64,000 nt of DNA, from assembly GCF_031598375.1 (NCBI RefSeq), contig NZ_CP123872.1, positions 2,414,501 through 2,478,500 of the forward strand, written 5' to 3'. The position numbers and the translations under genes were made by a program. The notes under the pieces are model-generated. The model was not told the DNA's origin, did not search any database, and saw only the letters and a list, made by a program, of their open reading frames with translations. Below, in pieces: positions 9,767-25,545 of the stretch. Numbering within the stretch: position 1 is the first letter of the stretch; each line of letters opens with the position of its first letter. The DNA is from Temperatibacter marinus. GTDB taxonomy: Bacteria; Pseudomonadota; Alphaproteobacteria; Sphingomonadales; Kordiimonadaceae.

Positions 9767-9824
9767 TTATTCTTGCCTTTTACTATTGTCACTATGACTG
9801 TTCATAAAGAATTTTCCCTGAGAA

Positions 9825-9871: not shown

Positions 9872-9902
9872 TCGCCGGAGAGTCTCTTGAGTGAGTTAAG
9901 AG

Positions 9903-9921: not shown

Positions 9922-9943
9922 GTATTGAGTAAGGAGTTAAATT

Positions 9944-10476: not shown

Positions 10477-10513
10477 AAACATCCTAATTGATATAACGAC
10501 TATTTTTCCCTTA

Positions 10514-10547
10514 CTGATCAGCAGATACCTTGCTTTGATCGGTTTTT
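10514..10547 (+). terminator. Hairpin with T-run before the terminase small subunit
   Basis: Outer stem CTGATCA/TGATCGG (one G-T pair) with inner GCA/TGC, then TTTTT. It lies between the candidate late promoter and the terminase gene start at 10594, so it could act as a leader terminator that limits transcription until some condition or factor allows read-through. Confidence 0.45.
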
Positions 10548-10593
10548 ATACTCTTCAATTTGGTTTAGTCTTCTTTCTTTCATATGGATATAT

Positions 10594-11028
10594 ATGGTGC
10601 GTAATAGGAAAAAGTCCTCAGCGCGGGTGAAGCGATTTTTATCGTCACTCAGCACTGGGGCTACAGTTAGTTTTGCTGCAGAACAAGCGCGTGTTTCCCC
10701 TTCGACTGTTTATAAGTGGCGCACCTCAGATCCGGCCTTTGCTGTTGAATGGGACGCTGCGGTTGAGGCCGGAACAGATCGTCTAGAGGATGAGGCTTAT
10801 AGAAGAGCTCTGGAAGGCGTAGAGCGGCCTGTCTATTTCGGTGGTAAACCTATCGGAAGTGTTCGTGACTATTCAGATAGCCTGCTGGTTTTGATGCTAA
10901 AAGCAAGGCGACCAGGTAAATTTAAAGATAAAGTGACCGAGAAGGACCCCGTTTCGGAGGGGCTGGAGCAAGCTCATGAGGCTCTTATCAGCAAACTCAT
11001 TCAGAAAACTTCCAAAGCCGACCATTGA
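10594..11028 (+). CDS. Terminase small subunit-like HTH protein
   Basis: 144 aa. The N-terminal third has a helix-turn-helix (FLSSLSTGATVSFAAEQARVSPSTVYKWR, about residues 14-43) and then the pattern DPAFAVEWDAAVEAGTDRLEDEAYRRALEGV, and later DYSDSLLVLMLKARRPGKFKDK, characteristic of small terminase-like proteins that recognise DNA for packaging. No clear ribosome site precedes the ATG at 10594. The gene overlaps the large subunit by 53 bases. Confidence 0.85.
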   Translation: MVRNRKKSSARVKRFLSSLSTGATVSFAAEQARVSPSTVYKWRTSDPAFAVEWDAAVEAGTDRLEDEAYRRALEGVERPVYFGGKPIGSVRDYSDSLLVLMLKARRPGKFKDKVTEKDPVSEGLEQAHEALISKLIQKTSKADH

Positions 11029-12280
11029 AGAGGCAATAAGAAGCCTAACAAGTACTGAAACTGAAATGTTACGCTATTCATGGGCATTTTGGGCGCGTAA
11101 TGATCAATTAGCACCTGAAGGTGAATGGATACACTGGCTCCTTCTTGCCGGCCGGGGCTTTGGGAAAACCAGAACCGGGGCAGAATGGGTTCGATATCTC
11201 ATCGAGACAGGGCAGGCAAGCCGGATTGCTCTGGTTGCGCCTACAGCGTCTGATGCAAGATACACTATGGTTGAAGGAGAGAGCGGGTTGCTTGCGATTT
11301 CACCGCCTTGGTTTCGGCCTTCTTATGAGCCGGCAAAAGCCTGTCTCACTTGGCCAAATGGCGCTAAAGCGTTTCTTTATTCTGCAGAAGAACCAGATCG
11401 GCTTAGAGGTCCGCAACATGATGCTGCATGGCTAGATGAACTGGCTGCATGGCGTCAATTAGATCAATGTTGGGATATGTTGCTGTTTGGGCTTCGACTG
11501 GGAAAGCGGCCACGGACCTGTATCACGACGACACCCCGTCCGCTTGGCTTAGTGAAGGCTTTGCTTGTGGACCCAGACGTGCATGTAACTCGCGGCACTA
11601 CATTTGATAATTTGACCAATCTGGCGCCCAGCTTTCAACAAATGATTCTATCGAAATATGAAGGAACACGGCAAGGCAGACAGGAACTTTATGCAGAAAT
11701 TCTTGAGGAACTGTCTGGGGCCCTATGGACGCAAGGTTTAATCGATCGTTATCGTGTTGACACTGCCCCTCTGTTAGAGCGAGTTGCGATAGCTGTGGAT
11801 CCGCCAGTCTCAACGGGGGAAGGGGCCGATGAATGCGGGTGCATAGTTGTTGGGCTCAGCAAAAAGAAAAAGGCTTATGTCTTGGCTGATGAAACAACTC
11901 AGGGACTTTCGCCCTTAGAATGGACGGAAAAGATAGTCAAAACATATTATGCGTATTTAGCGGATGAATTGATCGTGGAAGTAAATCAAGGTGGTGATCT
12001 TGTGGAGACATTAATTCATCAAGTAGATAAGCGCGTAAAAGTCAAGCCAGTTCGTGCTTTCCAGAGTAAGTTAGCTCGGGCTCAGCCTGTAGCATTGCTC
12101 TATGAGAAAGGTCAAGTTCATCACGTTGGCAGGCTCGAAATCCTTGAAGATCAGCTGTGCCATTATGACCTTTCTGCAAATACAAGGCCGCAGAGTCCTG
12201 ATCGGCTTGATGCTCTAGTATGGGCGCTTACGTCTCTCGTCTTAGAGACCAATCAGACCCTGCAAATCAAGTCACTATAA
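10976..12280 (+). CDS. Terminase large subunit (GTA/HK97-type packaging ATPase)
   Basis: 434 aa, the usual size of GTA-type large terminases. N-terminal ATPase: Walker A LLAGRGFGKTRTG at about residues 57-69, Walker B-like AAWLDELAAW at about 150-160, and the coupling-type ITTTPRP. The C-terminal half is the RNase H-like nuclease, with AIAVDPPVSTGEGADECG giving the first acidic residue and SPDRLDALVWA near the end giving the last. The start overlaps the small subunit gene and has GGAG upstream. It moves DNA into the prohead and cuts it. Confidence 0.95.
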   Translation: MRLLSANSFRKLPKPTIEEAIRSLTSTETEMLRYSWAFWARNDQLAPEGEWIHWLLLAGRGFGKTRTGAEWVRYLIETGQASRIALVAPTASDARYTMVEGESGLLAISPPWFRPSYEPAKACLTWPNGAKAFLYSAEEPDRLRGPQHDAAWLDELAAWRQLDQCWDMLLFGLRLGKRPRTCITTTPRPLGLVKALLVDPDVHVTRGTTFDNLTNLAPSFQQMILSKYEGTRQGRQELYAEILEELSGALWTQGLIDRYRVDTAPLLERVAIAVDPPVSTGEGADECGCIVVGLSKKKKAYVLADETTQGLSPLEWTEKIVKTYYAYLADELIVEVNQGGDLVETLIHQVDKRVKVKPVRAFQSKLARAQPVALLYEKGQVHHVGRLEILEDQLCHYDLSANTRPQSPDRLDALVWALTSLVLETNQTLQIKSL

Positions 12281-12312
12281 CATACCCCATTCATTTAAAA
12301 GAGGAGATAGGA

Positions 12313-13488
12313 ATGTCATTTTTGAAAAAATGGCTGCTCCGATTATCTGAGAAATCAAGAGATCATGGAAAGCCATCCCCTACGCGGAGAGTGCATTTTG
12401 TAAAACCCCCTCGCGTCGATACATCTCTCAACCGTTATGACCTCTTTAGTAAGGAGGGTTATCAGCGGAATGTTATTGTCAATCGATCAATAAACATGGT
12501 TGCCCGAGGAGTTGCTTCAATTCCGATAACTCTACACCGTTCTGGGGAAAGATTGGTTAGGCATAAGGCACTTGATCTCGTGAAAAAACCAAATCCACTG
12601 CAAAAAGGGACAGGCTTGTTATACAATATGACAGGCTATTACCTCATTGCAGGCAATAGCTATCTTTTATCGTTAGGGCCTCCTGAGGGTCAGCCTAAGG
12701 AACTTTGGTTATTAAGGCCAGATCTTGTCAAAGTGTCTTTATATCCGCAGTCCATTGATCCGCTGTTTAGTTACGGGCAAGGAGAACAACTGCGTCATTT
12801 CGACCGACAATCCGTGCTTCATTGGCATAGCTTTAATCCTCTCTGCGAATGGCACGGCTTCTCTCCTCTGGAGACTGCTGCAACGGCCATTGATCTACAC
12901 AATGAGAGCAGTCGGTGGAACTTATCGCTCATTAAAAATGGGGGGTGTCCTAGCGGTGTTTTATATCAAGAAGACGCCGCGGATTCCCTTACAGAGGGCC
13001 AATTTTCGCGATTAAAGGCACAAGTCAATGATCATTATTCTGGGGCCGTAAATGCTGGACGCCCTTTACTCTTGGAAGGCGGCTTGAAGTGGCAAGATAT
13101 GTCAATTTCGCCGAGCGATATGGACTGGCATCGGGGAAAGAATATGTCGGCAAGGGAAATTGCTTTGGCTTTTGGTGTTCCGTCTCAGCTTGTGGGTATC
13201 CCTGACTCTCAAACTTATTCGAATATGGCAGAGGCACGTTTAAGTCTGTGGGAAGAAACAATTCTTCCTCTGCATCAAGAAATTCTTAATCATTTAAATG
13301 CCTGGCTTCTTCCCAGATATGACGAGGACTTAGAATTTAAGGCGGATTTAGAGGCCGTTCCCGCCCTTGACTTAAAGAGAAGCCGAAAAATTGATCGCCT
13401 GAATAAAGCGACCTTTATGACCCTTAACGAAAAAAGAGAAGCCTTAGGACTTGATCCTATTCAGGAAGGAGAGCACTGCCATGACTAA
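12313..13488 (+). CDS. Phage portal protein (HK97 family)
   Basis: 391 aa from ATG 12313, which follows GAGGAGATAGGA. Contains the HK97-portal core: VNRSINMVARGVASIPITLHR, ALDLVKKPNPLQ, MTGYYLIAGNSYLLSLGPPEG, HWHSFNPLCEWHGFSPLETAATAI and the later IALAFGVPSQLVGIPDSQTYSNMAEARLSLWEETI. It forms the dodecameric DNA gate at one capsid vertex. Its stop overlaps the protease start by eight bases (ATGACTAA). Confidence 0.95.
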   Translation: MSFLKKWLLRLSEKSRDHGKPSPTRRVHFVKPPRVDTSLNRYDLFSKEGYQRNVIVNRSINMVARGVASIPITLHRSGERLVRHKALDLVKKPNPLQKGTGLLYNMTGYYLIAGNSYLLSLGPPEGQPKELWLLRPDLVKVSLYPQSIDPLFSYGQGEQLRHFDRQSVLHWHSFNPLCEWHGFSPLETAATAIDLHNESSRWNLSLIKNGGCPSGVLYQEDAADSLTEGQFSRLKAQVNDHYSGAVNAGRPLLLEGGLKWQDMSISPSDMDWHRGKNMSAREIALAFGVPSQLVGIPDSQTYSNMAEARLSLWEETILPLHQEILNHLNAWLLPRYDEDLEFKADLEAVPALDLKRSRKIDRLNKATFMTLNEKREALGLDPIQEGEHCHD

Positions 13489-14011
13489 GAGAGAAATGAT
13501 CAGCCCCTTAGAGGTGAAATTTTGTTCTGATGAAGGAAGTTTTGTGGGCTATGGGTCTCTTTTTAATCAATTAGATCGGGACGGAGATACCATAGAAAAA
13601 GGCTGCTTTCTTCAAAGTTTGAGTAAGAGACATCCTGCATTTCTATGGCAACATTGCCATCGTGAACCAATCGGTATCTTTACTTCAATCGAAGAAGATG
13701 CTCGCGGCCTTCTTGTGAAAGGGAAATTATGTTTAACTGGCCGGGGAAAGGAAGCATATGATCTCCTTAAACTTGGCGCGCTGAATGGCCTGTCCATTGG
13801 GTTTCGTGCTCGAGAGACTTCAAAAAATACAAAGACAGGGCATAGAATAATACACAAGGCTGATTTGCTTGAAATTTCACTTGTTACGTTTCCTGCACTT
13901 GAGGAGGCCCGTATTCACCACGTGAAAACTGCGCATGTAGAACAGGGTATCAACTATCAATCGCTCATATCCCATATTGAGACACGCACAAAATCACTCT
14001 CGCATCAGTAG
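13481..14011 (+). CDS. HK97-type prohead protease (U35)
   Basis: 176 aa from ATG 13481 (GGAAGGAGA upstream); a longer TTG start at 13451 has no support. Protease S78/U35 features: the His-containing FLWQHCHREPIG and the Ser-containing LGALNGLSIGFRARE, followed by DLLEISLVTFPALEEARI. It processes the capsid N-terminal scaffold domain during maturation. Located between portal and capsid as expected. Confidence 0.93.
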   Translation: MTKREMISPLEVKFCSDEGSFVGYGSLFNQLDRDGDTIEKGCFLQSLSKRHPAFLWQHCHREPIGIFTSIEEDARGLLVKGKLCLTGRGKEAYDLLKLGALNGLSIGFRARETSKNTKTGHRIIHKADLLEISLVTFPALEEARIHHVKTAHVEQGINYQSLISHIETRTKSLSHQ

Positions 14012-14042
14012 AGGGATTGAGTATTTTGAAAAATTTCATCAG

Positions 14043-14074
14043 CAGGAGAGCCCCCTCGGTTCTCCTGTTTTTTT
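14043..14074 (+). terminator. Intrinsic-terminator-like hairpin upstream of the capsid gene
   Basis: Seven-base perfect stem CAGGAGA/TCTCCTG (14043-14049 with 14061-14067) followed by seven T. It sits between protease and capsid, 20 bases before the capsid start. It could reduce read-through, or mark an mRNA end stabilising the upstream transcript while the capsid is separately expressed. Confidence 0.6.
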
Positions 14075-14093
14075 ATCACAAAAGGAGAGACAT

Positions 14094-15233
14094 ATGGAAC
14101 TGACAGATATAAAATCAGCCGTGGATCAATACGCTGATGCTGCAGAAACGAGCATGAATAGTTTACAGCAAAGGCTAGAAGACGTTGAGATGAAAATGGA
14201 AAGGCCCGCCCTTTTGCATAGTCAACAGAAGGTTGGTGAGACTTCCTTGAAATCTTCTCACAAACATAGTTTTCTCAGAGACTTTATGATCAAAGGAGAT
14301 GCATCTGCCCTGCGTCATGTTGAAACAAAAGCCTTATCAACCACGACGGGAGGAGACGGGGGATTTGCCGTCCCCGAAATAATTGACAGTCAAATTGAAC
14401 ATCTTCTGAAACAATTATCTCCGCTTAGATCACTTGTGAAAGTTAAGAATATAGAGACTTCAGATTATAAAAAATTAGTGAGTATTGGCGGTGCCTCTTC
14501 AGGCTGGATTGGTGAAACCGGCAATAGAAATGTTACTGACAGCCCCGCTTTAAAAGAAATCGCCATAACCCCAGGTGAAATATACGCTAACGCTGCTGCC
14601 ACACAGAGAGCTCTTGATGACTTACAATTTGATGCGGAATCTTGGTTGATGGATGAAGTTGCAGAGGAATTTTCCCTTCAAGAATCTGCGGCTATGGTCA
14701 TTGGAGATGGTCACCATAAACCAAGGGGGTTTTTGACTGCGATTATGAGTGATGAAAAGGATGAGGAACGTGATTTTGGTGCAATTCAGTTTCTGTCTTC
14801 TGGTGTCGAAGGGGCGTTTCCCAGTGAAAATCCTGCTGATCTATTGATTGATCTTATTCACTGTTTAAAAGCGCGCTATAGAAAAGGGGCTGTCTTTTTG
14901 ATGAATAGTAAAACATTGTCGCTCATAAGAAAATTTAAGGATTCAGATGGTCATTTCCTTTGGAAAGCTAGCTTGAAGGAAGGGGCTCCAAGTTTGCTTC
15001 TTGGATATCCAGTTTATGAGGTTGAAGAGATGCCTGATGTTGCTAATAATAGCCTCTCTATTGCTTTCGGTAATTTCGAGCGAGGGTATCTTCTTGTAGA
15101 GCGCTCCGGCACTCGTGTTTTACGCGATCCCTATAGCAATAAACCTTATGTTCATTTTTATGCAACTCGAAGAATTGGTGGGGCAGTCATAAACAGTGAG
15201 GCGATAAAAATACTCAAATTTGGCGCAACCTAA
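14094..15233 (+). CDS. Major capsid protein (HK97 gp5 family)
   Basis: 379 aa from ATG 14094 with AAAGGAGAGA upstream; the open frame begins earlier but without a ribosome site. The first 100 or so residues are a coiled-coil delta/scaffold domain (SLQQRLEDVEMKMERPA). The mature part likely begins near ALSTTTGGDGGFAVPEIID. HK97 signatures: PLRSLVKVKNIETSDYK, SSGWIGETG, and the late GDGHHKPRGFL. It builds the icosahedral head after cleavage by the upstream protease. Confidence 0.95.
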   Translation: MELTDIKSAVDQYADAAETSMNSLQQRLEDVEMKMERPALLHSQQKVGETSLKSSHKHSFLRDFMIKGDASALRHVETKALSTTTGGDGGFAVPEIIDSQIEHLLKQLSPLRSLVKVKNIETSDYKKLVSIGGASSGWIGETGNRNVTDSPALKEIAITPGEIYANAAATQRALDDLQFDAESWLMDEVAEEFSLQESAAMVIGDGHHKPRGFLTAIMSDEKDEERDFGAIQFLSSGVEGAFPSENPADLLIDLIHCLKARYRKGAVFLMNSKTLSLIRKFKDSDGHFLWKASLKEGAPSLLLGYPVYEVEEMPDVANNSLSIAFGNFERGYLLVERSGTRVLRDPYSNKPYVHFYATRRIGGAVINSEAIKILKFGAT

Positions 15234-15360
15234 TGCCATCAATTTTTCACTAATAGAATCACCTATAGAGAGAATTTGTTATTAAAAATGCTCTTTATGG
15301 GTGTTTTGTGCTTTCTAATCAACTTTTTATGATCTTTGATTTCCATAAGGTTTATAGATA

Positions 15361-15389
15361 TTTACACTTTAAGATATATAAAATATTAT
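15361..15389 (+). promoter_or_regulatory. Sigma-70 promoter of the 103-aa insert
   Basis: TTTACA (15361-15366) and TATTAT (15384-15389) each match consensus at five of six bases, with 17-base spacing. They lie in a 223-base, very AT-rich gap after the capsid gene, the largest non-coding gap in the element. Apart from this promoter I see nothing else in the gap. Confidence 0.55.
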
Positions 15390-15456
15390 AATAAGTTGCA
15401 AAATTAATCCGCTAAGTTATACGAATTTATCCAAACATTTAACAGAAGAGGCACCT

Positions 15457-15768
15457 ATGGAACTTACCTATACAGATATATTAAAAGTTAGAGCTCAGTC
15501 TGATATTGAAGATGGATTGATTAGTATTTTCCTGACAAATACTGTGGCACGCACATATGAAGAGGTTATGGCCTGTGCCTTAGCGGGTATTCATGACCTA
15601 CATTTGAGGCTTGATATGGTTGCTTGTGATACAGTGGATTTAAAGATCTCTCAGGAAGAATTGCAAGAACAGACCTTGTATAAGCACGGGTTAGCAACAT
15701 TTATCGTCTTTCTAGATGATCACGCGACAGTCGTCTGGAAGCCTCTTGTGAGGCCAATATCCGTCTAA
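15457..15768 (+). CDS. Unknown 103-aa moron-like protein
   Basis: Acidic protein of mixed composition (N-terminus MELTYTDILKVRAQ; C-terminus HATVVWKPLVRPISV) with no family I recognise, no signal peptide and no membrane segment. AGAGG lies before the start. It has its own promoter and is followed at once by a strong terminator, and it interrupts the usual capsid-to-connector order, so it behaves like a moron: an extra gene expressed independently of the late operon, perhaps in the dormant state. A host-benefit or exclusion role is possible but speculative. Confidence 0.75.
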   Translation: MELTYTDILKVRAQSDIEDGLISIFLTNTVARTYEEVMACALAGIHDLHLRLDMVACDTVDLKISQEELQEQTLYKHGLATFIVFLDDHATVVWKPLVRPISV

Positions 15769-15787
15769 ACTTAAACAATCGTTACAT

Positions 15788-15819
15788 ATGCCGTCCACTT
15801 TTGGGGCGGCATTTTTTTT
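15788..15819 (+). terminator. Strong intrinsic terminator after the 103-aa gene
   Basis: Nine-base stem ATGCCGTCC/GGGCGGCAT with one G-T pair and eight T after it. Closes the promoter-gene-terminator unit before the connector gene. Confidence 0.8.
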
Positions 15820-15838
15820 GCTTATTCAGGAGAGTTTT

Positions 15839-16468
15839 ATGAAAAATGAACTATTACATCCGCCCGAAGATCAAGCTTTAACTCTTAAGGCCGTTCAAGA
15901 TCACCTCCGGATCACTCACACGGGAGAAGACGAAACCCTGCAGCGCTTAATTGAAAGTGTGACCAGTTATTTTGAGCAGACCTATTCTCTCGCGCTGATC
16001 CGGCAAAAGTGGGGTCTATGGCTCGATCACTGGCCTCACCAAGATAAAAGTCCGTGGTGGGAGGGGGTATCTGACGGGGCTCTCCGGGATGTTTTTGATA
16101 GTAATGGAGGGGTTAAAATACCGCAAAGACCCTTACTTGAGGTTTCTGAAGTGTCCATTCTAAATTCAGAATCAGATGCTGAAGAATGGGGCCGTGACTA
16201 TTATCGATGGTCAGGGGGATTGGAACCAAGACTGATCCTTAAAGAAGGTCTGATCTGGCCAGCACCAAAAATTAACACAGAAGGCATATACATCAGCTAT
16301 ATTGTCGGTTTTGGAGATCATAGTTTCGATGTGCCTATGTTGATTAGGCACGGGCTTTTAGAAATGATGACGTTTCTGTATAGCAATCGCGGTGGTGACT
16401 TAAGAAATGCAGAAAAAGCCAGCGGAGCTTATAGTCTCTGGTCTCCCTATCGAAGGGTTTCCTTATGA
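15839..16468 (+). CDS. Head-tail connector (phiE125 gp8 / GTA g6-like)
   Basis: 209 aa from ATG 15839 (TCAGGAGAG upstream); the frame opens inside the preceding terminator, so the longer start is rejected. LTLKAVQDHLRITHTGEDETLQRLIESVTSYFEQ at residues 13-46 is the typical N-terminus of this connector family, and YIVGFGDHSFDVPMLIRHGLLEMMTFLY the typical C-terminal region. It joins the portal to the tail. The stop overlaps the next start. Confidence 0.88.
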   Translation: MKNELLHPPEDQALTLKAVQDHLRITHTGEDETLQRLIESVTSYFEQTYSLALIRQKWGLWLDHWPHQDKSPWWEGVSDGALRDVFDSNGGVKIPQRPLLEVSEVSILNSESDAEEWGRDYYRWSGGLEPRLILKEGLIWPAPKINTEGIYISYIVGFGDHSFDVPMLIRHGLLEMMTFLYSNRGGDLRNAEKASGAYSLWSPYRRVSL

Positions 16469-16854
16469 TGAAACCATACTTTGAAAAAAAATCTAAAATT
16501 ATTCTTGGTCATATGAATAAATCTATACGTCTTTACCGAGAAACGCACCGTACAGGGAGAGGCGGTCAAATTCTCAAAACATATGCCATTATAGAAAATG
16601 TCTGGGCAGCTGTGAGCAGTCGGTATAGTTCCTCAGTTTCTCGTGCTTCAACTCACTGGCGAGAGAGTGCGGTAAATTTCATTCTCTACAATAGTCCTAC
16701 ATATAGGGCGACGAAACGGATTGAATGGGAAGATACGCTTTATACAGTGTATGCATTCAGGGATCCAGATGGGGATCAACGCTTCCTTGAAGTGCAAACG
16801 ACAGCCCTACCAGAGACAGCGTCTTTGAACGGTGCAGAAGAGGAGGGAGTATGA
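16465..16854 (+). CDS. Head-tail adaptor (Phage_H_T_join / GTA g7-like)
   Basis: 129 aa. Central sequence VWAAVSSRYSSSVSRASTHWRESAVNFILYNSP and DTLYTVYAFRDPDGDQRFLEVQTT fit the small beta-barrel head-tail joining proteins. Starts within ATGATG overlapping the upstream stop. An internal Met at about residue 17 (MNKSIRLYRE) would give a more standard length of 113 aa, and the start is uncertain between the two. Confidence 0.85.
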   Translation: MMKPYFEKKSKIILGHMNKSIRLYRETHRTGRGGQILKTYAIIENVWAAVSSRYSSSVSRASTHWRESAVNFILYNSPTYRATKRIEWEDTLYTVYAFRDPDGDQRFLEVQTTALPETASLNGAEEEGV

Positions 16855-17300
16855 GTCCCAAAATCCTCTCAGCTGTTCACACGTCCCTCTATGAAAAACT
16901 CATGACGTCTGAGGCCTTAACTACTGCAGGAGTGCGGCTTTATGATTACCCTCCTGAAAATGCGCCATTGCCCTATGTCTGTTTTGAAGAAACGGGTTTT
17001 AGACCTGTTGATACTAAATCCAGTTCCGGGATGAAAATTACAGTAACTTTAGCCATTTGGTCTGAGAATTTAGGCCAATTAGAAGTAAAAGAAATCATGG
17101 ACTCTCTTAGGGAGGTTCTGAAGGAGAGTCTCATAGTACCCTCTGAAGATGGAACAGAAGTATCTGTATCTTATTATACGGTAGACAGCGCTAAGGTTAC
17201 GCAACTGCACCAAAAAAATACCATTCTAATGAAGGGGACGCTGATATTTTCAGTGACAGTCCATGCTGTCGTAGGCTCCCACTCATTAAACTTTCTATGA
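16851..17300 (+). CDS. DUF3168 tail terminator-like protein (GTA g8-like)
   Basis: 149 aa. Contains the DUF3168 pattern: VHTSLYEKLMTSEALTTAGVRLYDYPPENAPLPYVCFEE at about residues 7-45, then ITVTLAIWSENLGQLEVKEIMDSLREVL. Proteins of this family cap the tail tube near the head. Overlaps the upstream gene by four bases (ATGA). Confidence 0.88.
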   Translation: MSPKILSAVHTSLYEKLMTSEALTTAGVRLYDYPPENAPLPYVCFEETGFRPVDTKSSSGMKITVTLAIWSENLGQLEVKEIMDSLREVLKESLIVPSEDGTEVSVSYYTVDSAKVTQLHQKNTILMKGTLIFSVTVHAVVGSHSLNFL

Positions 17301-17365
17301 CTTACACATAAATATGACAACATATTTCATCGATCATGATTGATGATATTTTAAAGGAGATCCAA

Positions 17366-17776
17366 ATGATTCCACAAAAAGGAAAAGACTTTCTGTTGCT
17401 TGTTGAAGATATGTCCAACGAAGGCAGTTTTCTACAGATTGGCGGGTTCCGATCGAATAGTTTTTCGATCAATGGTGAAACTGTCGATATCACGTCAAAA
17501 AATTCCAGAGGCTATAGAGAATTGCTAGACGGGGCAGGTATTAAGTCTCTGTCTACTTCAGGCTCAGGTATTTTTATGAGTGATGAAACTATTAAATTCG
17601 TGAATGGTGTCGCTCTGACTGGAATTATACATACTTGGCAATTAGTGGTTCCTGGGATGGGCAGTTATACGGCGCCTTTTGCTCTCACGACTTTTGAAAT
17701 GAGCGGTGAACATAATGGGGAAGTCACTTATTCCCTCAGCTTAGAAAGTGCGGGTTTGGTGGCTTATAGCAGATAG
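17366..17776 (+). CDS. Major tail tube protein (TP901-1 / GTA g9 family)
   Basis: 136 aa from ATG 17366, which has AAAGGAGAT at good spacing; ATG 17336 has none. GFRSNSFSINGETVDITSKNSRGYRELLDGAGIKSLSTSGSGIF is the hallmark of the family. It polymerises into the tail tube. Ends ten bases before the tail chaperone gene. Confidence 0.92.
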   Translation: MIPQKGKDFLLLVEDMSNEGSFLQIGGFRSNSFSINGETVDITSKNSRGYRELLDGAGIKSLSTSGSGIFMSDETIKFVNGVALTGIIHTWQLVVPGMGSYTAPFALTTFEMSGEHNGEVTYSLSLESAGLVAYSR

Positions 17777-17785
17777 GAGGCTTTA

Positions 17786-18127
17786 ATGGCGCATCATGCA
17801 GTTGGCGAAACCAGCTTAAAGGTTGGTGAAGATATTTTTACACTCAGGCTTACCCTTGGAGGGATGCAAGATCTTGAAGATTTTGGAGACTGCTCTCTTT
17901 TCACTTTTTGGGATAAAACCTTTGAAGGAAATAGCCTGAGGGTTGGTAACTTTTTGACCATCTTGGCTGTAATGTTAGGAGAAAAGGCAGGCAGTAAGGA
18001 AGCAGAACTGCAGGCTTTTAATGCCTTTCATCAGGCAGATTTATCTTTGCTTATAGAAAAAGTGGCAACTTGTTTCAACCAGACCTTAAATCCAAGGGAG
18101 GGGCCGGGAAAGCCCAAGATGAGGTAG
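17786..18127 (+). CDS. Tail assembly chaperone, short form (GTA g10-like)
   Basis: 113 aa, with the GTA tail-chaperone N-terminus (LKVGEDIFTLRLTLGGMQDLEDFG, about residues 11-34). In long-tailed phages the gene between tail tube and tape measure makes a short and a frameshifted long chaperone that coat the tape measure. A lambda-identical slippery heptamer lies seven codons before the stop in exactly the right frame, so the short form is read when no shift occurs. Confidence 0.88.
   Translation: MAHHAVGETSLKVGEDIFTLRLTLGGMQDLEDFGDCSLFTFWDKTFEGNSLRVGNFLTILAVMLGEKAGSKEAELQAFNAFHQADLSLLIEKVATCFNQTLNPREGPGKPKMR
18106..18112 (+). other. Programmed -1 frameshift site GGGAAAG
   Basis: Read in the chaperone frame this is G GGA AAG, an exact X XXY YYZ slippery site and the same heptamer lambda uses for its G-T frameshift. 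Slipping back one base moves ribosomes into the next frame, which stays open to 18363. The downstream frame has no credible start codon with a ribosome site of its own. Confidence 0.8.
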
Positions 18128-18363
18128 AACAGCTTGAAGGGAAAGTGGCGTCTATAGAAGTTATTGATTGGGGCGGGCTTTATGAAATGGCCGCCCTTTG
18201 CTGCATCTCTCCTGCCTGTCTACATCAGTATACTTTCCCAGAATTACTATATAGTTACAGAGCGTGGCAACGGTCCCAGGGAATTGATCCTGATAAAGAT
18301 TTAAAAGCACCACAAATGACAAGAGAGAGAATGACGACACTTTTTAAGGAATATGTGCCTTGA
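18112..18363 (+). CDS. Frameshift extension of the tail chaperone (GTA g10.1 / DUF2376-like)
   Basis: 83 residues joined after codon 109 of the short chaperone, giving a predicted fusion of 192 aa. The extension begins AQDEVEQLEGKVASIEVIDWGG and carries WGGLYEMAALCCISPACLHQYTFPELLYSYRAW, typical of the small DUF2376-type proteins that follow g10 in GTA clusters. Read as a separate gene it would need TTG 18070, GTG 18142 or ATG 18184, none with a properly spaced ribosome site. In lambda the T domain recruits the tape measure; the same role is inferred. Confidence 0.78.
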   Translation, partial: AQDEVEQLEGKVASIEVIDWGGLYEMAALCCISPACLHQYTFPELLYSYRAWQRSQGIDPDKDLKAPQMTRERMTTLFKEYVP

Positions 18364-18406
18364 TATTTCTAGGTCACTATTTTTATGAATAAAATTTAAA
18401 GATGTA

Positions 18407-18435
18407 TTGACTCACTTAATAATAGTATTTAACGT
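18407..18435 (+). promoter_or_regulatory. Weak promoter candidate ahead of the secreted pair
   Basis: TTGACT (18407-18412) is a good -35, but the sequence 17 bases downstream (TAACGT) is a poor -10. The 98-base gap after the chaperone also holds a small GTGCC/GG-CAC hairpin followed by TTTTT (18355-18384). Own-promoter expression of the next two genes is plausible but unproven. Confidence 0.3.
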
Positions 18436-18461
18436 TGAAGTAGTTTTAGGAGTTTAGAGTA

Positions 18462-19001
18462 ATGATCCTGAAGACATTTTTTACTATTTTAGTAGTTCCA
18501 ATTGTTATGTTGTTTGCAGCAGATTATCCGGTCAATGATCCGTTACTGTGGCAGTATAAGTGTAGGACTGAAAGACTGAAAGATTTTTCTGACATATTTG
18601 CGGATAAATCTGATCGGGTTAACTATGTATATATTAAAGAATGTCAATCAACAGCTTATCTGTTAAATGGCCCTGAAGATGATTTCTTTCTTACCTTCAA
18701 TATTCGACAAAATAGTAGGGGAGATCGACGCGCTTATCTAGGGTTGCCTGAGTTAATGGAATTTGAGGATATAGAGTTCCGCTTTGACGATGATCCATTC
18801 ATCAAGTTTAAGTGTATTTTGGTCATAGAACCGGCTTGCCTTCTTGCTGAAGGATTCAGAGTGAATGGTGTTATTAATAAGCTAAAAACCAGCAAATCAA
18901 TGTCGCTTCTTATTCACACAACCACAAAAGATACATTTCAGATCACATTTAAAACGGCCATTGCTGAGAAGGTTAAATTTCCGCCTCTAAGTCTGGAGTA
19001 G
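18462..19001 (+). CDS. Secreted four-cysteine protein, IalB-like (copy 1)
   Basis: 179 aa with an N-terminal hydrophobic signal (about residues 1-19, cut likely after FAA) and four Cys at 34, 61, 118 and 126. The late segment FKCILVIEPACLLAEGFRVNGVINKL resembles the invasion-associated locus B (IalB) family, where a Cys pair is followed by a small helix and strands. AGGAG precedes the start. Together with its neighbour it is inserted between tail chaperone and tape measure, where phages normally have nothing else. Export suggests action in the periplasm or outside; function unknown. Confidence 0.7.
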   Translation: MILKTFFTILVVPIVMLFAADYPVNDPLLWQYKCRTERLKDFSDIFADKSDRVNYVYIKECQSTAYLLNGPEDDFFLTFNIRQNSRGDRRAYLGLPELMEFEDIEFRFDDDPFIKFKCILVIEPACLLAEGFRVNGVINKLKTSKSMSLLIHTTTKDTFQITFKTAIAEKVKFPPLSLE

Positions 19002-19034
19002 ATTGTTTTGTTACTCACCTTCAGGAATTATATA

Positions 19035-19547
19035 ATGTTTAGAATATCGATAACTATAATCCTACTCACACTTTTCAGTCAATTTTCTAAAGCGTCTGAC
19101 ACTCTTCAAGATTGGGATACCTATACAATGGGCATGAAGGGGTGTGTTGATGATCCCTGGACTACCATGAAACTCTGTTTAAAGACCTATTTATTCTATT
19201 CACTGGAATTACGGGAGTATAAAGCTTACCTAGAAGTGGTGCAAATGAAGAATGGGGAAAAAATTCTTTTTATCCATGCAGTAAATTATCCTGAAAAAAT
19301 GCCTGAAACTATCGAAATACTGTTGCCTGGATCCCCTGACATTACAGCTCGATGTGGTGTGATCAATATACCGCAGCTTTGTTTAATTGCTAAGGGGAAT
19401 GCTATTCAGGGAATATTGAGGAAATTGTTCGAATCTAGTGCTTTAACACTCACTTTAAATTCATCTGATGATAAGCATTATTCTTTGAGTGTTATGCCGT
19501 GGAATAACATTCCGATTCTATATAAAAAAGGGCTTTTCAAAAACTAA
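19035..19547 (+). CDS. Secreted four-cysteine protein, IalB-like (copy 2)
   Basis: 170 aa from ATG 19035 (AGGA upstream; a TTG nine codons earlier is rejected). Signal peptide about residues 1-20 ending FSKA. Four Cys at 37, 48, 107 and 116, the last pair spaced like copy 1, with ARCGVINIPQLCLIAKGNAIQGILRKL aligning with the same region there. The two proteins look like diverged duplicates of an IalB-like fold. A strong terminator follows, so the pair forms a self-contained insert. Confidence 0.7.
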   Translation: MFRISITIILLTLFSQFSKASDTLQDWDTYTMGMKGCVDDPWTTMKLCLKTYLFYSLELREYKAYLEVVQMKNGEKILFIHAVNYPEKMPETIEILLPGSPDITARCGVINIPQLCLIAKGNAIQGILRKLFESSALTLTLNSSDDKHYSLSVMPWNNIPILYKKGLFKN

Positions 19548-19571
19548 GGTCAGGTTTGCCTATACGAAGGT

Positions 19572-19597
19572 AAGGAGAGCGTTGCTCTCCTTTTTTT
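19572..19597 (+). terminator. Strong intrinsic terminator after the secreted pair
   Basis: Nine-base perfect stem AAGGAGAGC/GCTCTCCTT with a GTT loop and seven T. It separates the secreted pair from the tape measure gene, whose start is only 17 bases further on. Confidence 0.85.
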
Positions 19598-19613
19598 ATG
19601 GAGATATATAAGT

Positions 19614-20858
19614 ATGAAATCCTTGTTAGTTATCTTAAAGAAAGCCGTTAAAAATAGCAGGAACATTTTAATTAGACTCAAAAAAAAATATAAAGATTTT
19701 CCTCTTGCCGAAGGATTAACTCTCCTGGATACAGTTGTAACGATAATTTCAGCGTTTGAGAAAAATGCCGCTGAACAAGCCTTAGAAGACTTTACTGTTA
19801 GAAGAAAAGCAGGGCATAAGTTTGAAGCCTTCAAGTATGCTCCAAGACAGGTTGTTAGAAATTATGCACAGAGTGAGGAGATTGAGGGATACCCACATCA
19901 GCAAGCCTTTAATGATGTTATCCATAAAATGGATGGTGCCAATCGCTGGACAGAAGAAGGGCGCGACACGCTGACCTATTTAGATAAGAATAAATCCTTA
20001 TCTCACAGTGAAATTCAAGAGGATGAAGGGTATCAATCGCTTATTAACAAGCTTGATCAGTCTTTGTTAGCTTCTACCAACAACGGTGGCCCCCGGCCTC
20101 AAATTGATCTGTCTGTCTTCTCGCGACAGCTTACCTGTCTTGAAGAAATAAGAGCTGATATTGCTTCTATTCGAGCCTGTTTGGGAGAAATATTTCAGCC
20201 AAGGCAACATACTCCTTCTCTGCCATTCACTTTCTCGCAAACATCACTTTCTTCAGAACTGACTAAAGAAGATCAAACTTTACCGACTTTAGCTAAACCG
20301 TCTCAGCAATTTCTGCCACAGAGTTCCGTTGGTCAGACAATAGAGTTAAAGCAACCCACTAAGGACACGCTCTCTTCAATACTGGCCGAGACGAAAAAAG
20401 GCCATAAGCTATTGAAGGCTGAAGAGAAGGGTAAAGCTCTCTATACAGCGGGTATTGCCATGCAGGAAAATATTGCACAAGCTATGAAAGCAGGCTTTCC
20501 TCTCAATCTTGTGTTGATGGCACAAGCTGCAGCACAGGGTAAGAAAGTTATACAAACAATTAAGGGGCAATTTCACAACGGAGTATCTTTCGTTCCTGGA
20601 AGTGGTAGCTACTATCTACAGGGAGGCGAGCGTGTTTTAGCAAAGGAAACAAATTTAGATTTAAAAGCCTTTATGAAAGGGATGAAACCCCAAAGCGCTT
20701 CTCCCGCCGCTATCGATCGTTCTTTTAAACCTGATGTTACAGTGAATGTTACCGGTGATGTTTCTGAAGAAACAATTCATAAGGCACGTCAATCCTTTAA
20801 AAATCAACTCACTGAACTGTATCGAGAGCATTGTCTAATCTCTCCTTTTCCGGACTGA
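19614..20858 (+). CDS. Tail tape measure-like protein
   Basis: 414 aa, short for a siphophage tape measure. At the usual ~1.5 angstrom per residue it would set a tail of about 60 nm. The N-terminal region is basic and helical with a hydrophobic stretch (GLTLLDTVVTIISAF); the middle is helix-rich. The C-terminal part has IAMQENIAQAMKAGFPLNLVLMAQAAAQGKK and then FVPGSGSYYLQGGERVLAKETN, reminiscent of tape-measure tails (GG-E-V motif). Position after the chaperone supports the call; sequence similarity is only moderate. Confidence 0.7.
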   Translation: MKSLLVILKKAVKNSRNILIRLKKKYKDFPLAEGLTLLDTVVTIISAFEKNAAEQALEDFTVRRKAGHKFEAFKYAPRQVVRNYAQSEEIEGYPHQQAFNDVIHKMDGANRWTEEGRDTLTYLDKNKSLSHSEIQEDEGYQSLINKLDQSLLASTNNGGPRPQIDLSVFSRQLTCLEEIRADIASIRACLGEIFQPRQHTPSLPFTFSQTSLSSELTKEDQTLPTLAKPSQQFLPQSSVGQTIELKQPTKDTLSSILAETKKGHKLLKAEEKGKALYTAGIAMQENIAQAMKAGFPLNLVLMAQAAAQGKKVIQTIKGQFHNGVSFVPGSGSYYLQGGERVLAKETNLDLKAFMKGMKPQSASPAAIDRSFKPDVTVNVTGDVSEETIHKARQSFKNQLTELYREHCLISPFPD

Positions 20859-20920
20859 ACAGCATATCATCCTCATTAGGGGGATATGACTATCATTTTC
20901 TCTCATCAATTCTCTTAATC

Positions 20921-20945
20921 AGCTGCCAATTTGGTGGCTATTTTT
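20921..20945 (+). terminator. Weak hairpin with T-run before the tail-tip genes
   Basis: Stem AGCTGCCA/TGGTGGCT (two G-T pairs) with an ATT loop, then ATTTTT, 17 bases before the next start codon. Weaker than the other hairpins in the cluster. Confidence 0.4.
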
Positions 20946-20961
20946 ATAGAAGGAGTATTTT

Positions 20962-21525
20962 ATGCCCACTCTGTCTCGTGCAGAAGTTCTGGCTTTACCA
21001 GAATTGCCCTTTGCCAGGCCGACGTCTTCTCTATCTGAAGCGCGGATCGTTTCTCAGACAATGACCAGTCACCGTCAATCTCAATTTTCACAAGCTTTAA
21101 GCGGCCGCATTATGACAAAAGCTACGGGCGCTCAATGGTTCGAAATGCACTTAACATTCTCCCCCATGCGCGCAGAACAGGCTTTAAGAATGATTGGCTT
21201 TCTAGAGAAAATGCAAGGTCGGATAGGCTATTGTCGTATCCCTCTCTTCCCAGACGCAGGGTCTTCAGATTTAACCGTAGGGAGCTATGTTAACTATAGC
21301 AATCACAGTAAGTTATACGTGGTGACAAGCCTGTCTGGCGCATCCCCCACTGTTGCGCCGAGACCTTTAAATGAAGGTGGAAGCCTCATTGTTCCGTCAA
21401 CATCAAGTCGAGATGATCACCTAGTCTATATGGCCGCATCATTAAAGAGTGATCATCAGTCAATTGAGGTTAAACCCGATGGCTTAAATCACATTAATCT
21501 CACATTTATTGAAAGGTTAGAATGA
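20962..21525 (+). CDS. Distal-tail / tail-tip protein (unassigned)
   Basis: 187 aa with GAAGGAG before the start. The sequence (FEMHLTFSPMRAEQALRMIGFLEKMQGRIGYCRIPLF, about residues 57-93) suggests a tail-tip structural protein. It occupies the place of GTA g12, but it lacks the DUF2460 pattern I would expect there. Overlaps the next gene by four bases. A distal tail protein is the most likely role. Confidence 0.6.
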   Translation: MPTLSRAEVLALPELPFARPTSSLSEARIVSQTMTSHRQSQFSQALSGRIMTKATGAQWFEMHLTFSPMRAEQALRMIGFLEKMQGRIGYCRIPLFPDAGSSDLTVGSYVNYSNHSKLYVVTSLSGASPTVAPRPLNEGGSLIVPSTSSRDDHLVYMAASLKSDHQSIEVKPDGLNHINLTFIERLE

Positions 21526-22076
21526 TGATAGCAATAACCCATGATCAGATGGTGGCTCTGAGCGCGCCGACCCTCACCTATGCCTGGTTGGTTGACCTGC
21601 CATTTGAAACCTATTTAACAACGCATGCGGATGATGTGGTTGTTGAAGATAAGTCTTATCTAGCCTCTGCTCATATTCAATCAATTCCCATGCTCTCCAG
21701 AAGTCAGGGTATCAAAGTTCAAGATCTTTCTTTAACCTTCACTCAACAGCAAACTGAGTTACAAGATTTATTCTCTCGTCCTGATATCTTTGGGCAAGGT
21801 GTTTCATTGAAGTTGGTTCTCTTCACAGAGGATGGACAGCCTGTGAGCCATAGGGCGATTGATGTTTATAAAGGCTATTTCGACCATTGGACACACCATC
21901 AAAACCCTAAAAGAGAGCTTATCACAGTGGTTTTGTCTAGTCCGTGGTCAAAACCCAATAAAACATCAGGCCGACTGGCAAATCCAGCAGAGCATCAAAA
22001 AAACCATTCAACCGATAAGTTTTTTGAATTTTCTTATGATACGAAGAAAATTTTGGGATGGGGAGGCGAAGTTTAA
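21522..22076 (+). CDS. Tail-tip / hub-like protein (unassigned)
   Basis: 184 aa. The end, SGRLANPAEHQKNHSTDKFFEFS with WGG close behind, resembles the C-terminus of small siphophage tip proteins that precede the J-type protein, where an R-N-P-A-Q and D-F-F-E pattern is common. It sits where GTA g13 (about 290 aa) would be but is much shorter. The stop overlaps the next start as TAATG. Confidence 0.6.
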   Translation: MMIAITHDQMVALSAPTLTYAWLVDLPFETYLTTHADDVVVEDKSYLASAHIQSIPMLSRSQGIKVQDLSLTFTQQQTELQDLFSRPDIFGQGVSLKLVLFTEDGQPVSHRAIDVYKGYFDHWTHHQNPKRELITVVLSSPWSKPNKTSGRLANPAEHQKNHSTDKFFEFSYDTKKILGWGGEV

Positions 22077-24841
22077 TGGGACTTTTAAGCACTCTTTTTC
22101 GCGTTTTCTTCTCGGGGCCCAAACAGGACCGGACAGTAGGCATTGATACATCTGGGGCCACCGCTGGATTGAAAATTGTATACGGGACCGTCAAAATGAC
22201 CCCGATTACTGTTTATAAATGTGTTTCAAGGGATCATATGCCAGTTCAATCAGGAAAATATGATCAAGAGTTGTTACCTCTCTCGCGCGCTTATGAAGAG
22301 CGAAGACCATATTCAGACTGGCTTTATAAAGTAGATGTATGGGGCTTAGGGCCGCTGACATCTATTGAGCAGCTATGGGTTGACGGTGAAGATAGCAGAA
22401 GCAGAAAATTTACAAGGCGACCTTATATTAGAGCCCATTCACAATTGGGGAGACCACGCCAAAAGGCTATTGTTGAGTTATCGAGGGTAGAGGGATCTCA
22501 GTGGACAACACAACACCGCGGGTTTGATATTTGCTATAGTGTACACCGTTTTTATGCCTCCAAGAATAAACCCCTTTTTAGGGCAGAACCTAGTACGGAA
22601 GCACTTGTAAAGGGCAGGGCAGTCTATGATCCAAGACAGAGAGATCAGCTCGCTTCGGACCCTTCAACCTGGGCTTATAGTGAAAATTCAATATTAATCG
22701 CTCTGGATTATCTTATGGCCGAGTATGGCATCGGGGCAAACGCGGAAGAAATTGATTGGGAGAGTTGGAAACAAGCAGCAACTTACTGTGATGCCACGCT
22801 GTTAGATATTCCCGATGTCATGCGACACGAAGAAGTTCAACCAGGAAGAATTTTTGATGATCGTTATAATGAATGGATGGAAATCAATCAGGGGGATCGT
22901 TACCCTGATTACAGGCCAAAACAAACGGCTGGGATCAGAACGCTAAGACGTCATGAGGCACACATTGCTCTGGATCCTAAGCGGCCAGCCGTCGAGAATA
23001 TGCGATTGCTTCTGGAAGGACTTGCTTGGTCAATGCCATGGTCAAATGGCAAACATAAAATTATCTTAGAACATTCAGTCACACAGAATGATGTTGTAGC
23101 TCATTTTGATGGGCATGATATCATGGGGGATGTAAAGATTTCATATGGAGGCCTAAAAGACCGCTATAATCAAGTCACCATAGAATTTTTGAATGCGAAT
23201 AAAAATTATGAAGCTGATGCTGTCAGCTGGCCACCTTTCAGCAAAGCATCAAATAGTATTTATCAAGGCTATCTAGCAGAGGATCAAAATCAAAAACTTC
23301 ATAGTCGCCGCAAAGTTGAAGCCATTTCTGATTTTTACCAAGCGCAAGCGTTCGCAGAATTTCTTGTTCGAAAGAGTAGAGTTAAAACATCGATCAGAAG
23401 CCTACCTCTTAGTCCCCGTGCCATTTTACTAGAGCCAGGGGATGTGATTTCCCTATCTTTACCAAACTATACAGAGGCTACGGCCTTGTTTAGGGTTGAG
23501 AATATTGCTTTTGGTCATGGCCTCGATCCTGTCGTAGATCTGCATCTTTATGAGGCTTCTGTTTACGGTGTCACCTCAGAGCAAGAACCCTATTCACCTA
23601 AGGTAGGTAAAGAATGGGAAATACCTGAGAGTGTGGATGATCTGTCAGCAGCCGCTTTCAAGGAAAGAAATTCTGATGGTACAGCTCTGTTCGGATTTGA
23701 TCTGACATGGACGACCCCAAGTCTAACATCGGGTATTGATTTCATTGAAATCGCGTGGCGTGCCCATAGGACGGGTCAAGCACCAGAGGCGGAAGAGGAG
23801 GCCTATACTGAAACGCTGGTTATCCCAAAAGAGGTTTCAACGGCTAAAATTAAAGGCCTGAAGGATAATAGATCTTATGATATTAGGGTATCCTATCGGA
23901 CCGCGTTGGGCCAAGTCTCAGAAATTTCATTCTTGACCGCTGCACTCCCTGATTACCCCACGACAGTCATTGCGGCTGATACTGAATCTGTCGCCGGTAG
24001 AGAGGCAGGGGACGTGGATAACGATGCCCAAATAGGAAGAGAATTATCAGAGCATAATACGACCAAACTAGACCCTTCTTCAGTTGAGGGTTTGGATATC
24101 GATGTGAGAACCCTCCAAGCCAGTGGAGGCGAGTTAATTGTTTCTGCCCAAGATTCTCTCCACGAAGGTGGGCAGATCAAATTGAAAGGTGCCAGTGTTT
24201 TTCCTGACTATTACGTTGATAATTATCTGGGCCACTGCCGAGTTGTTTGGCCTAGTGAAAATAAGGAAATCTTTCGATTTCACGTGGGTGGCGGATTTTG
24301 GTTTAGTAATAAAAAGGCCTTTGAGACCTATGATCAATGGCTGCGGATTAATTCAACATCCGGATTTTCTAGCGGTATTTATACGGGCACAAGTTTGATC
24401 AGAACGGACAATATGATCCAAGTTGGATCATGGGGCGCTGCTTTTTCTGTGAATAAATATGGTTCGGGTTTTTTTGCGAAAGAGGTGACAGTCGTCGAAG
24501 AAGTTAAAGCTGGAGAGGCATATCAGCTCTCGCTGGATACGAGGCCAGAGGATGTTACCCCTCTAACGAATGGGTTGGCACTAACCCTCAGGCTCGCCGG
24601 TTACCAAAAGACGGAAGCTGCTGTTATAGGCCTACCTTCCTATGGGTTTGATTATAGCGAAGTTAGGGCGATAGCCCCTAATTTATGCATGCGGGATTCT
24701 CGGGGACGCCACTATATTGCCTATCCCAAGGTTACGGTTCTCAACACTGAGGCGATAAAAAGCCTGCATTCAAGTTATCAAGATCTTCTAAGGCGAGTGT
24801 CGATCCTAGAAGAGCGCTTAAGTCACCGTCCCTACACTTAG
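22076..24841 (+). CDS. Tail tip attachment protein J-like (host specificity)
   Basis: 921 aa from ATG 22076 (GGGAGG upstream, TAATG coupling). The N-terminal 300 residues match J-type tail-tip proteins: KIVYGTVKMTPITVY, then FRAEPSTEALVKGRAVYDPR and a helical segment ALDYLMAEYGIGANAEEIDWESW. A fibronectin-III-like domain lies around residues 535-620 (FDLTWTTPSLTSGIDFIEIAW and DNRSYDIRVSYRT). The C-terminal 200 residues are fibre-like and end in a short coiled coil (QDLLRRVSILEERL). It should contact the cell-surface receptor. Confidence 0.85.
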   Translation: MGLLSTLFRVFFSGPKQDRTVGIDTSGATAGLKIVYGTVKMTPITVYKCVSRDHMPVQSGKYDQELLPLSRAYEERRPYSDWLYKVDVWGLGPLTSIEQLWVDGEDSRSRKFTRRPYIRAHSQLGRPRQKAIVELSRVEGSQWTTQHRGFDICYSVHRFYASKNKPLFRAEPSTEALVKGRAVYDPRQRDQLASDPSTWAYSENSILIALDYLMAEYGIGANAEEIDWESWKQAATYCDATLLDIPDVMRHEEVQPGRIFDDRYNEWMEINQGDRYPDYRPKQTAGIRTLRRHEAHIALDPKRPAVENMRLLLEGLAWSMPWSNGKHKIILEHSVTQNDVVAHFDGHDIMGDVKISYGGLKDRYNQVTIEFLNANKNYEADAVSWPPFSKASNSIYQGYLAEDQNQKLHSRRKVEAISDFYQAQAFAEFLVRKSRVKTSIRSLPLSPRAILLEPGDVISLSLPNYTEATALFRVENIAFGHGLDPVVDLHLYEASVYGVTSEQEPYSPKVGKEWEIPESVDDLSAAAFKERNSDGTALFGFDLTWTTPSLTSGIDFIEIAWRAHRTGQAPEAEEEAYTETLVIPKEVSTAKIKGLKDNRSYDIRVSYRTALGQVSEISFLTAALPDYPTTVIAADTESVAGREAGDVDNDAQIGRELSEHNTTKLDPSSVEGLDIDVRTLQASGGELIVSAQDSLHEGGQIKLKGASVFPDYYVDNYLGHCRVVWPSENKEIFRFHVGGGFWFSNKKAFETYDQWLRINSTSGFSSGIYTGTSLIRTDNMIQVGSWGAAFSVNKYGSGFFAKEVTVVEEVKAGEAYQLSLDTRPEDVTPLTNGLALTLRLAGYQKTEAAVIGLPSYGFDYSEVRAIAPNLCMRDSRGRHYIAYPKVTVLNTEAIKSLHSSYQDLLRRVSILEERLSHRPYT

Positions 24842-24880
24842 AGAATAACATCGTCATCGATCACGGAAAAGGAGACAAAA

Positions 24881-25237
24881 ATGGACAAATTTATGCAATC
24901 ATTTCTGGCGGAACGCGCCGCTAAAAATATACCTCAAGAGGTAAAGGAACTCTTATTAATTCGTCAGCAAGCAGAACAGACTCTCAGACGATTGGATAGG
25001 CTCTTACATCGATTTCATGAAATCATAGATACCCATGGGCCGGAGGGTCAAAGGCCTCTGTTTGACCAAGCTGATTGTCGCGCAATCCGTAAAGTTAAAA
25101 ATGCTTTTCTTGAGGGGGGAATTTCAATGCCATCCCACAGCCATGAGAAAGAGGAGGGGTTTGCCTATCAAGGGTTAAAGGCGTTGGTAAAGGCCTTAAA
25201 AGGAGGGGATAGTGCTCACTTTCATCTTTCTTCTTAG
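24881..25237 (+). CDS. Unknown 118-aa protein in the phage cluster
   Basis: AAAGGAGAC precedes the start. The first 55 residues are helical and charged (KELLLIRQQAEQTLRRLDRLLHRFHEII), a likely coiled coil; the rest is mixed, with a His-rich segment near 80-90 (SHSHEKEEG) and a C-terminal HFHLSS. No family recognised. Position between tip protein and holin suggests a late accessory or lysis-regulating protein; this is a guess. Confidence 0.65.
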   Translation: MDKFMQSFLAERAAKNIPQEVKELLLIRQQAEQTLRRLDRLLHRFHEIIDTHGPEGQRPLFDQADCRAIRKVKNAFLEGGISMPSHSHEKEEGFAYQGLKALVKALKGGDSAHFHLSS

Positions 25238-25312
25238 TATGGGAATGGAATTCAATATTCTTCACTCTCTGTCTAAGGTCAGTGTGTTTCATGCTGCTGA
25301 ATCCCCTAGCGT

Positions 25313-25522
25313 ATGAGTAAACAGAAAAAATCAGCTGCTGATATGTCTGTGTCGACACATCAAGCCTTAGTAACAGCTACCGAGGCTCTTCTGAAAATCG
25401 ATCAACATGAAAAGATATGTTCTACCCGGTGGGGACTATTAACGCGCCTTTTACTGATCACTGTATTCAAATTAGGCGCCCTTCTTTTCTTTTTACTTAG
25501 CGATAAATTAGGTTGGATTTAA
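25313..25522 (+). CDS. Small single-span membrane protein
   Basis: 69 aa with one C-terminal transmembrane helix (LLTRLLLITVFKLGALLFFLLSDKLGW, about residues 42-68). No clear ribosome site before ATG 25313. Its stop is 23 bases before the holin start. Could be an antiholin or spanin-like partner; no family recognised. Confidence 0.5.
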   Translation: MSKQKKSAADMSVSTHQALVTATEALLKIDQHEKICSTRWGLLTRLLLITVFKLGALLFFLLSDKLGWI

Positions 25523-25545
25523 TCGCCACTTTAGGAGCCAGTTCT

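Follow-up and report, generated by a model that had tools for sequence, protein, structure and literature searches.

A probable lambda-type −1 frameshift site in the tail chaperone gene of a GTA-like element of Kordiimonadaceae

In the 64,000-nucleotide stretch of Temperatibacter marinus DNA analysed here (the window, from a genome of a single contig of 3.18 Mb), the tail assembly chaperone gene of an element resembling a gene transfer agent (GTA) very probably has two products, a 113-aa g10 protein and, from a minority of ribosomes, a 192-aa g10-g10.1 fusion derived by a lambda-type −1 slip at G GGA AAG. That a GTA-like tail chaperone has a lambda-type −1 site, as an earlier note on this DNA had proposed, is well supported by conservation, by protein family matches and by the predicted fold; what is directly observed is the in-phase site, its conservation among relatives and a −1 frame that is coding. 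Frameshifting in the tail chaperone is characteristic of phages with long tails, and GTAs are phages that have been domesticated. The finding of a constrained recoding site in some GTA-like clusters suggests that tail building is still under selection.

The slip site and its reading frames

The heptamer is in phase within the 113-aa open reading frame (Table 1), and its AAG is followed by CCC AAG ATG AGG and then TAG, GGA being the sixth-last sense codon of g10. The in-frame site had been correctly recognized in the earlier note, and its distance, given there as seven codons before the stop, needs adjustment. A 113-aa short form, 83 extra codons in the −1 frame and a predicted fusion of 192 aa were also claimed, and the reading of the frames, with the −1 frame open up to the stop at 18363, agrees with this. 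For the −1 part, said in the earlier note to have no credible start, the candidates in that frame of the window are a TTG at 18070 (upstream, inside g10), a GTG at 18145 for which the SD-like sequence is weak, and an ATG at 18187 (inside the domain).

By itself the GGGAAAG motif means little, since there are 12 matches on the two strands of the window where 9.1 are expected (12 or more are found in 19 of 100 shuffles); a second copy, 3′ of the g10 stop and out of slippery phase, is probably irrelevant to slippage. What is beyond chance is the place, phase and conservation of the heptamer, not its mere presence.

The majority of ribosomes would terminate at 18127 to give the g10 form, and a minority would slip −1 on G GGA AAG, with the Gly and Lys tRNAs re-pairing on GGG AAA, and continue to 18363 to give the fusion. 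If lambda is a guide, the role of the short form would be to coat the tape measure protein, and that of the extension, carried by the fusion, to recruit g9 tail tube subunits; the ratio of the two forms would therefore matter for tail assembly. Slippage itself, its frequency and the roles of both products are what we infer.

Potential stimulators were sought on either side of the site. The Shine-Dalgarno-like stretch at 18094-18103 is a possible stimulator in the window, its duplex energy being the strongest among the 23 Kordiimonadaceae loci with g10.1 in the −1 frame (range +0.4 to −11.8 kcal/mol); as a stimulator shared by the family such a stretch was rejected, being strong in the window and not conserved in the family. 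A downstream stem-loop was dropped as a candidate given the inconsistency of its signal across loci: RNA structure downstream of the site is not conserved, with a z of 0.02 for the window and mixed values for its relatives.

Table 1. Positions in the window of the chaperone gene, its recoding features and neighbouring genes
Feature	Position	Strand	Basis
GTA-like element	9113..25968		family matches; ends are our reading
S24-type/HTH repressor-like gene, divergent, left end of element	9113-9766	minus	
g9-like tail tube protein	17366..17776	+	PF06199, 1.3e-34
113-aa short form of the g10-like tail assembly chaperone (putative lambda gpG counterpart)	17786..18127	+	ORF, PF11836, predicted fold
Predicted 192-aa g10-g10.1 frameshift fusion	17786..18363	+	inferred product
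Shine-Dalgarno-like stretch AAGGGAGGGG just 5′ of heptamer	18094..18103	+	sequence; duplex energy −11.8 kcal/mol
−1 slippery heptamer G GGA AAG	18106..18112	+	phase; this heptamer or A AAA AAG in 23/23 −1-frame family loci
−1 extension of 83 codons and a stop, g10.1-like C-terminal domain (putative lambda T counterpart)	18112..18363	+	aligned with −1 part of relatives
Second GGGAAAG, 3′ of g10 stop, out of slippery phase	18139..18145	+	sequence
Two adjacent 179-aa genes	18462-19547		
Terminator-like hairpin, 3′ of the 179-aa gene pair	19572-19592		
Tape measure protein, 414 aa	19614..20858	+	phrog_13674 tape measure, 4.4e-17
GTA_holin_3TM gene, end of element	25513-25968		

The element and the identity of the two chaperone parts

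The gene order of the element is terminase, portal, protease, HK97-type capsid, head-tail, tail tube, chaperone, tape measure, distal tail, J-like and holin, a small terminase-like gene with a weak match being present together with the large terminase. Comparison of the tail tube protein with PDB sequences gives a sole match at E ≤ 0.001, the Rhodobacter capsulatus GTA tail tube protein Rcc01691 (1.8e-28). At the tail tip, typically made up of g12-g15 in an RcGTA-like GTA, distal tail and J-like proteins are present and diverged, the GTA_megatron model scoring 17 bits against a cut-off of 800. RcGTA-like head-tail genes appear to be inherited in Kordiimonadaceae at nearly one copy per genome. 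In three Kordiimonadaceae relatives (L161, L162 and L163) head and tail genes appear scattered among other genes and not compact. In the window, FlgK-like and flagellin-like genes are directly downstream of the element.

The chaperone gene is flanked by the tail tube and tape measure genes, with two extra genes ahead of the latter. These 179-aa genes are distant relatives of each other (28% identity over 68 aa), have a lower G+C (0.36) and look like an inserted pair; a search of the 28 other family genomes gave no match to the first of them.

For the g10 part, PF11836 (Phage_TAC_11, ‘GTA-gp10’) is matched over residues 7-101 at an E of 0.0031, below the family cut-off, and all eight proteins of a g10 alignment (A4) match it at E ≤ 0.1, the best at 8.3e-9. 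The g10 structure is predicted with a pLDDT of 84, and its top BFVD matches are viral tail assembly chaperones (best E 2e-3, prob 1.00, with none at E ≤ 0.001; the protein of Rhodobacter phage RcapNL is at rank 18). Profile and predicted fold thus suggest a resemblance of g10 to viral tail assembly chaperones. The −1 part, called DUF2376-like in the earlier note, groups with g10.1: PF09550 (Phage_TAC_6) is matched by six of the eight g10.1 proteins of alignment A5, although the window's own copy has no match in Pfam, NCBIfam or PHROGs. That copy aligns with the −1 part of the family loci, LCC being present in the window where most relatives have LGW. In a larger alignment (A3) of 25 g10.1 pieces 20 match PF09550 and two match Phage_P2_GpE, though loci found with PF09550 supplied 12 of the 25 pieces, which makes this count of 20 circular in part; the A5 count is free of that fault. 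For g10.1 the predicted structure is of modest quality, at a pLDDT of 70, and PDB sequence and fold searches with g10 and g10.1 gave nothing useful.

Conservation in Kordiimonadaceae and the rival explanations

A g10 match is present in 24 of the 29 family genomes, the window's own included, as a single copy in each except for two in genome G020, and so at 25 loci; at 23 of these, the window counted, g10.1 is in the −1 frame. Comparison of the homologous g10/g10.1 regions for a conserved heptamer, which had been suggested as a check, reveals an in-phase site in every one of the 23, as G GGA AAG in 21 and A AAA AAG in two, with A-type heptamers in the two other phases at one and no loci. The distance from the end of the heptamer to the g10 stop is 0 to 60 nt. 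Codon shuffling of the last 60 codons leads to the expectation of GGGAAAG or AAAAAAG in 0.37 of the 23 loci, and of any in-phase XXXYYYZ heptamer in the overlap in 2.38. As a control, the last 120 nt of the tail tube gene have some in-phase heptamer in five of 22 loci, and GGGAAAG or AAAAAAG in none. With Gly-Lys fixed, local codon usage would yield G GGA AAG with a probability of 0.013. The 23 loci are relatives of one another and so not independent events (the tail tube proteins of L013 and L014 are identical); the window's g10 is 25-37% identical to that of the other 22 loci with the same arrangement. From these comparisons the slip site in Kordiimonadaceae appears to be under strong constraint, and its conservation is taken as the decisive evidence.

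There are two exceptions. At L024 the g10 frame is broken. In Kordiimonas sediminis (L025/L078) the site is absent; its g10.1 occupies the +1 frame and starts at a GTG that has AAGGGG ahead of it. In the same species (L025/L162) a relative of the L161 gene that follows g10.1, in the tape measure position, is upstream of the capsid gene.

On one rival explanation, which is improbable, the heptamer is incidental and g10.1 is a separate protein, made by reinitiation past the g10 stop at the GTG at 18145 or from another start. An overlapping g10.1 start does occur in the RcGTA family and in several others, and the GTG in question is 20 nt past the first base of the g10 stop codon, with an SD-like GAAGGG close by (duplex −4.3 kcal/mol); however, the latter is only 3 nt from the GTG, and an own start is not a family feature, given that 16 of the 23 loci have no ATG, GTG or TTG in the −1 frame ahead of the conserved domain, whose position is set by a sequence landmark, and all 23 have the heptamer. 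In the interval from −25 to +5 nt around the g10 stop, 20 of the 23 have no start codon, the three slip loci with one there being L005, L011 and L023. Pertinent too are the eight of the 40 A-type loci in the broader survey, two of them in Kordiimonadaceae, where the −1 frame opens only 0-2 codons ahead of the heptamer and has no prior start.

Decay, with a single open reading frame split by an indel and the heptamer there by chance, is highly improbable. Divergence of the window's tail-tip genes from those of the relatives compared, and the two unrelated genes between g10.1 and the tape measure gene, would be in keeping with a remnant, but retention of the arrangement in 22 other loci whose g10 is this dissimilar already contradicts it. 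Least probable of all is that the fusion arises by transcriptional slippage and not by ribosomal frameshifting, for which the A run of the A AAA AAG in two relatives would be suitable; GGGAAAG, used by the other 21, has no long homopolymer run.

Other Alphaproteobacteria and known systems

The survey comprised 138 loci (Table 2). The class sample was found by PF09550 in 385 genomes, two of the genomes surveyed (G414 and G480) having two loci each, and the share of listed places sampled was 29 of 97 for f23 (L027, a 30th, belonging to the class sample), 11 of 41 for family f2 and 29 of 31 for the other order families. Two classes of slip site were counted, A-type (GGGAAA or AAAAAA) and CCCTTT or AAACCC. 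A start codon located between −25 and +5 nt relative to the g10 stop is called a near start, and a slip site outranks a near start in the naming of a locus.

Table 2. Slip sites and near starts by sample
Sample	Loci	In-phase A-type among −1-frame loci	Loci with A-type out of phase	Near start, no slip site	Neither
Kordiimonadaceae	25	23/23	1	1 in +1	1 same frame
Class sample	44	9/38	1	12 in −1, 2 in +1	4 other −1, 1 other +1, 2 same frame, 1 without frame call
f23 (RcGTA family)	29	0/18	0	18 in −1, 8 in +1	1 other +1, 2 same frame
Other order families	29	8/12	4 (two per phase)	4 in −1, 17 in +1	
f2	11	0/8	0	8 in −1, 2 in +1	1 same frame

Slip sites are present at 22 of the 44 class-sample loci (nine purine or A-type, 13 pyrimidine-type) and at eight of the 29 loci from other order families. 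Among class-sample loci with g10.1 in the −1 frame the figure is 22 of 38 by the two heptamer classes with profile-found g10, and 23 of 37 by any XXXYYYZ heptamer. CCCTTT or AAACCC is in phase in 13 of those 38 and out of phase in one, the corresponding numbers for Kordiimonadaceae being none and two. A near start accompanies the slip site at three of the 23 slip loci of Kordiimonadaceae, 13 of the 22 in the class sample and three of the eight from other order families. Because this amounts to 16 of the 30 slip loci outside Kordiimonadaceae, those loci could use a separate start or both ways.

Attention is drawn to eight class loci (L030, L031, L034, L035, L036, L043, L046 and L053) at which C CCT TT(C/T/G) is in phase and g10 runs over the PFxW motif that opens the g10.1 domain; each of the eight has a near start as well. 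At this overlap C CCT TTN is a candidate slippery heptamer, CCCTTT sites being confounded by the conserved Pro-Phe motif. In a small and post hoc codon check CCC TTT is used in all eight class loci with g10 past PFxW, TTC in five of the seven other class loci with Phe there, and TTT in two phage loci without the PFxW overlap.

The family of the nearest RcGTA relative sampled, f23, stands here for RcGTA; the tail tube protein of one member (L028) matches Rcc01691 at 9e-73. None of its 29 loci has a slip site of either counted class, in 26 a start codon overlaps the end of g10 or directly adjoins it, and g10.1 is in the −1 frame in 18, the +1 frame in nine and the same frame in two. Mixed frames and own starts at the end of g10, with no slip site, point to separate initiation of g10.1. 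The earlier note's suggestion that frameshifting may be widely missed in Rhodobacter-type GTAs is therefore to be narrowed: it has probably been overlooked in several GTA-like lineages, as the class and order counts above indicate, but Rhodobacter-type GTAs proper are not among these.

In a quickly built tree of the tail tube from 130 loci, whose few columns and long branches make the counts indicative only and do not separate gain from loss, there are at least 13 changes between slip and start, or 10 if A-type sites alone are counted, and the starred branches alone force three for the A-type label. The simpler guess is that the RcGTA family has lost the slip, since frameshifting is described as broadly conserved in long-tailed phages in passages of PMC5009743 and as usual in R. 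capsulatus phages in part of PMC8601537. A tentative view is that GTA-like elements alternate repeatedly between a −1 fusion and two proteins from overlapping starts, the way of the RcGTA family, with some loci perhaps doing both; equally tentatively, the slip would take place on G GGA AAR/C or A AAA AAG, several lineages having a C CCU UUN or A AAC CCU site as a further type. The frequent near starts at slip loci outside Kordiimonadaceae lower the standing of this view. If it is true, the fusion is not needed for every tail, and the need for a G/GT ratio, assumed for a long time, would be testable with natural variants.

For its G-T fusion lambda uses G GGA AAG. The G/GT tail assembly chaperones of that phage are reportedly the subject of work by Xu, Hendrix and Duda in 2004. 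According to passages of PMC5009743, where lambda G/GT is described, G_GGA_AAG is highly shift-prone in E. coli, the tail chaperone frameshift is widely conserved in long-tailed phages, and mature virions do not contain the lambda products. The window differs from lambda G/GT in that the gene is part of a GTA-like chromosomal element, the fusion being predicted from sequence and its role by analogy. For the phiCbK group, −1 sites AAAAAAC and GGGAAAC are predicted (PMC3556154, in part), and most R. capsulatus phages described show signs of the usual frameshift (PMC8601537, in part); these are free phages, likened to the window by description. Among phage records, a Desulfofustis phage has GGGAAAC in phase and two uncultivated GTA-like phages have AAACCCT directly 5′ of the g10 stop. 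All three records have parts that match the g10 profile and the g10.1 profile and list them as two genes, an annotation that is corrected here. In Rhodobacter phage RcapNL (L071, 3429-4001), by contrast, there is one continuous 190-aa open reading frame, for which no shift is needed and which matches the g10 profile weakly and also the g10.1 profile.

Within the passages of open-licence papers searched no description was found of frameshifting in a GTA tail chaperone, nor, among open-licence papers, one that combines Kordiimonas with a gene transfer agent, and the present case is thus of a known mechanism, that of lambda G/GT, in a setting where no description of it was found. The frameshifted and the separately started chaperones make up a natural set with which to test why phages need the fusion. 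In RcGTA itself g10 is tail chaperone 1 and g10.1, as g10.5, is tail chaperone 2 (PMC11409702, in part), with protein families and gene order homologous to those of the window; unlike the window, the RcGTA family sampled mostly has a g10.1 start of its own and has no slip heptamer.
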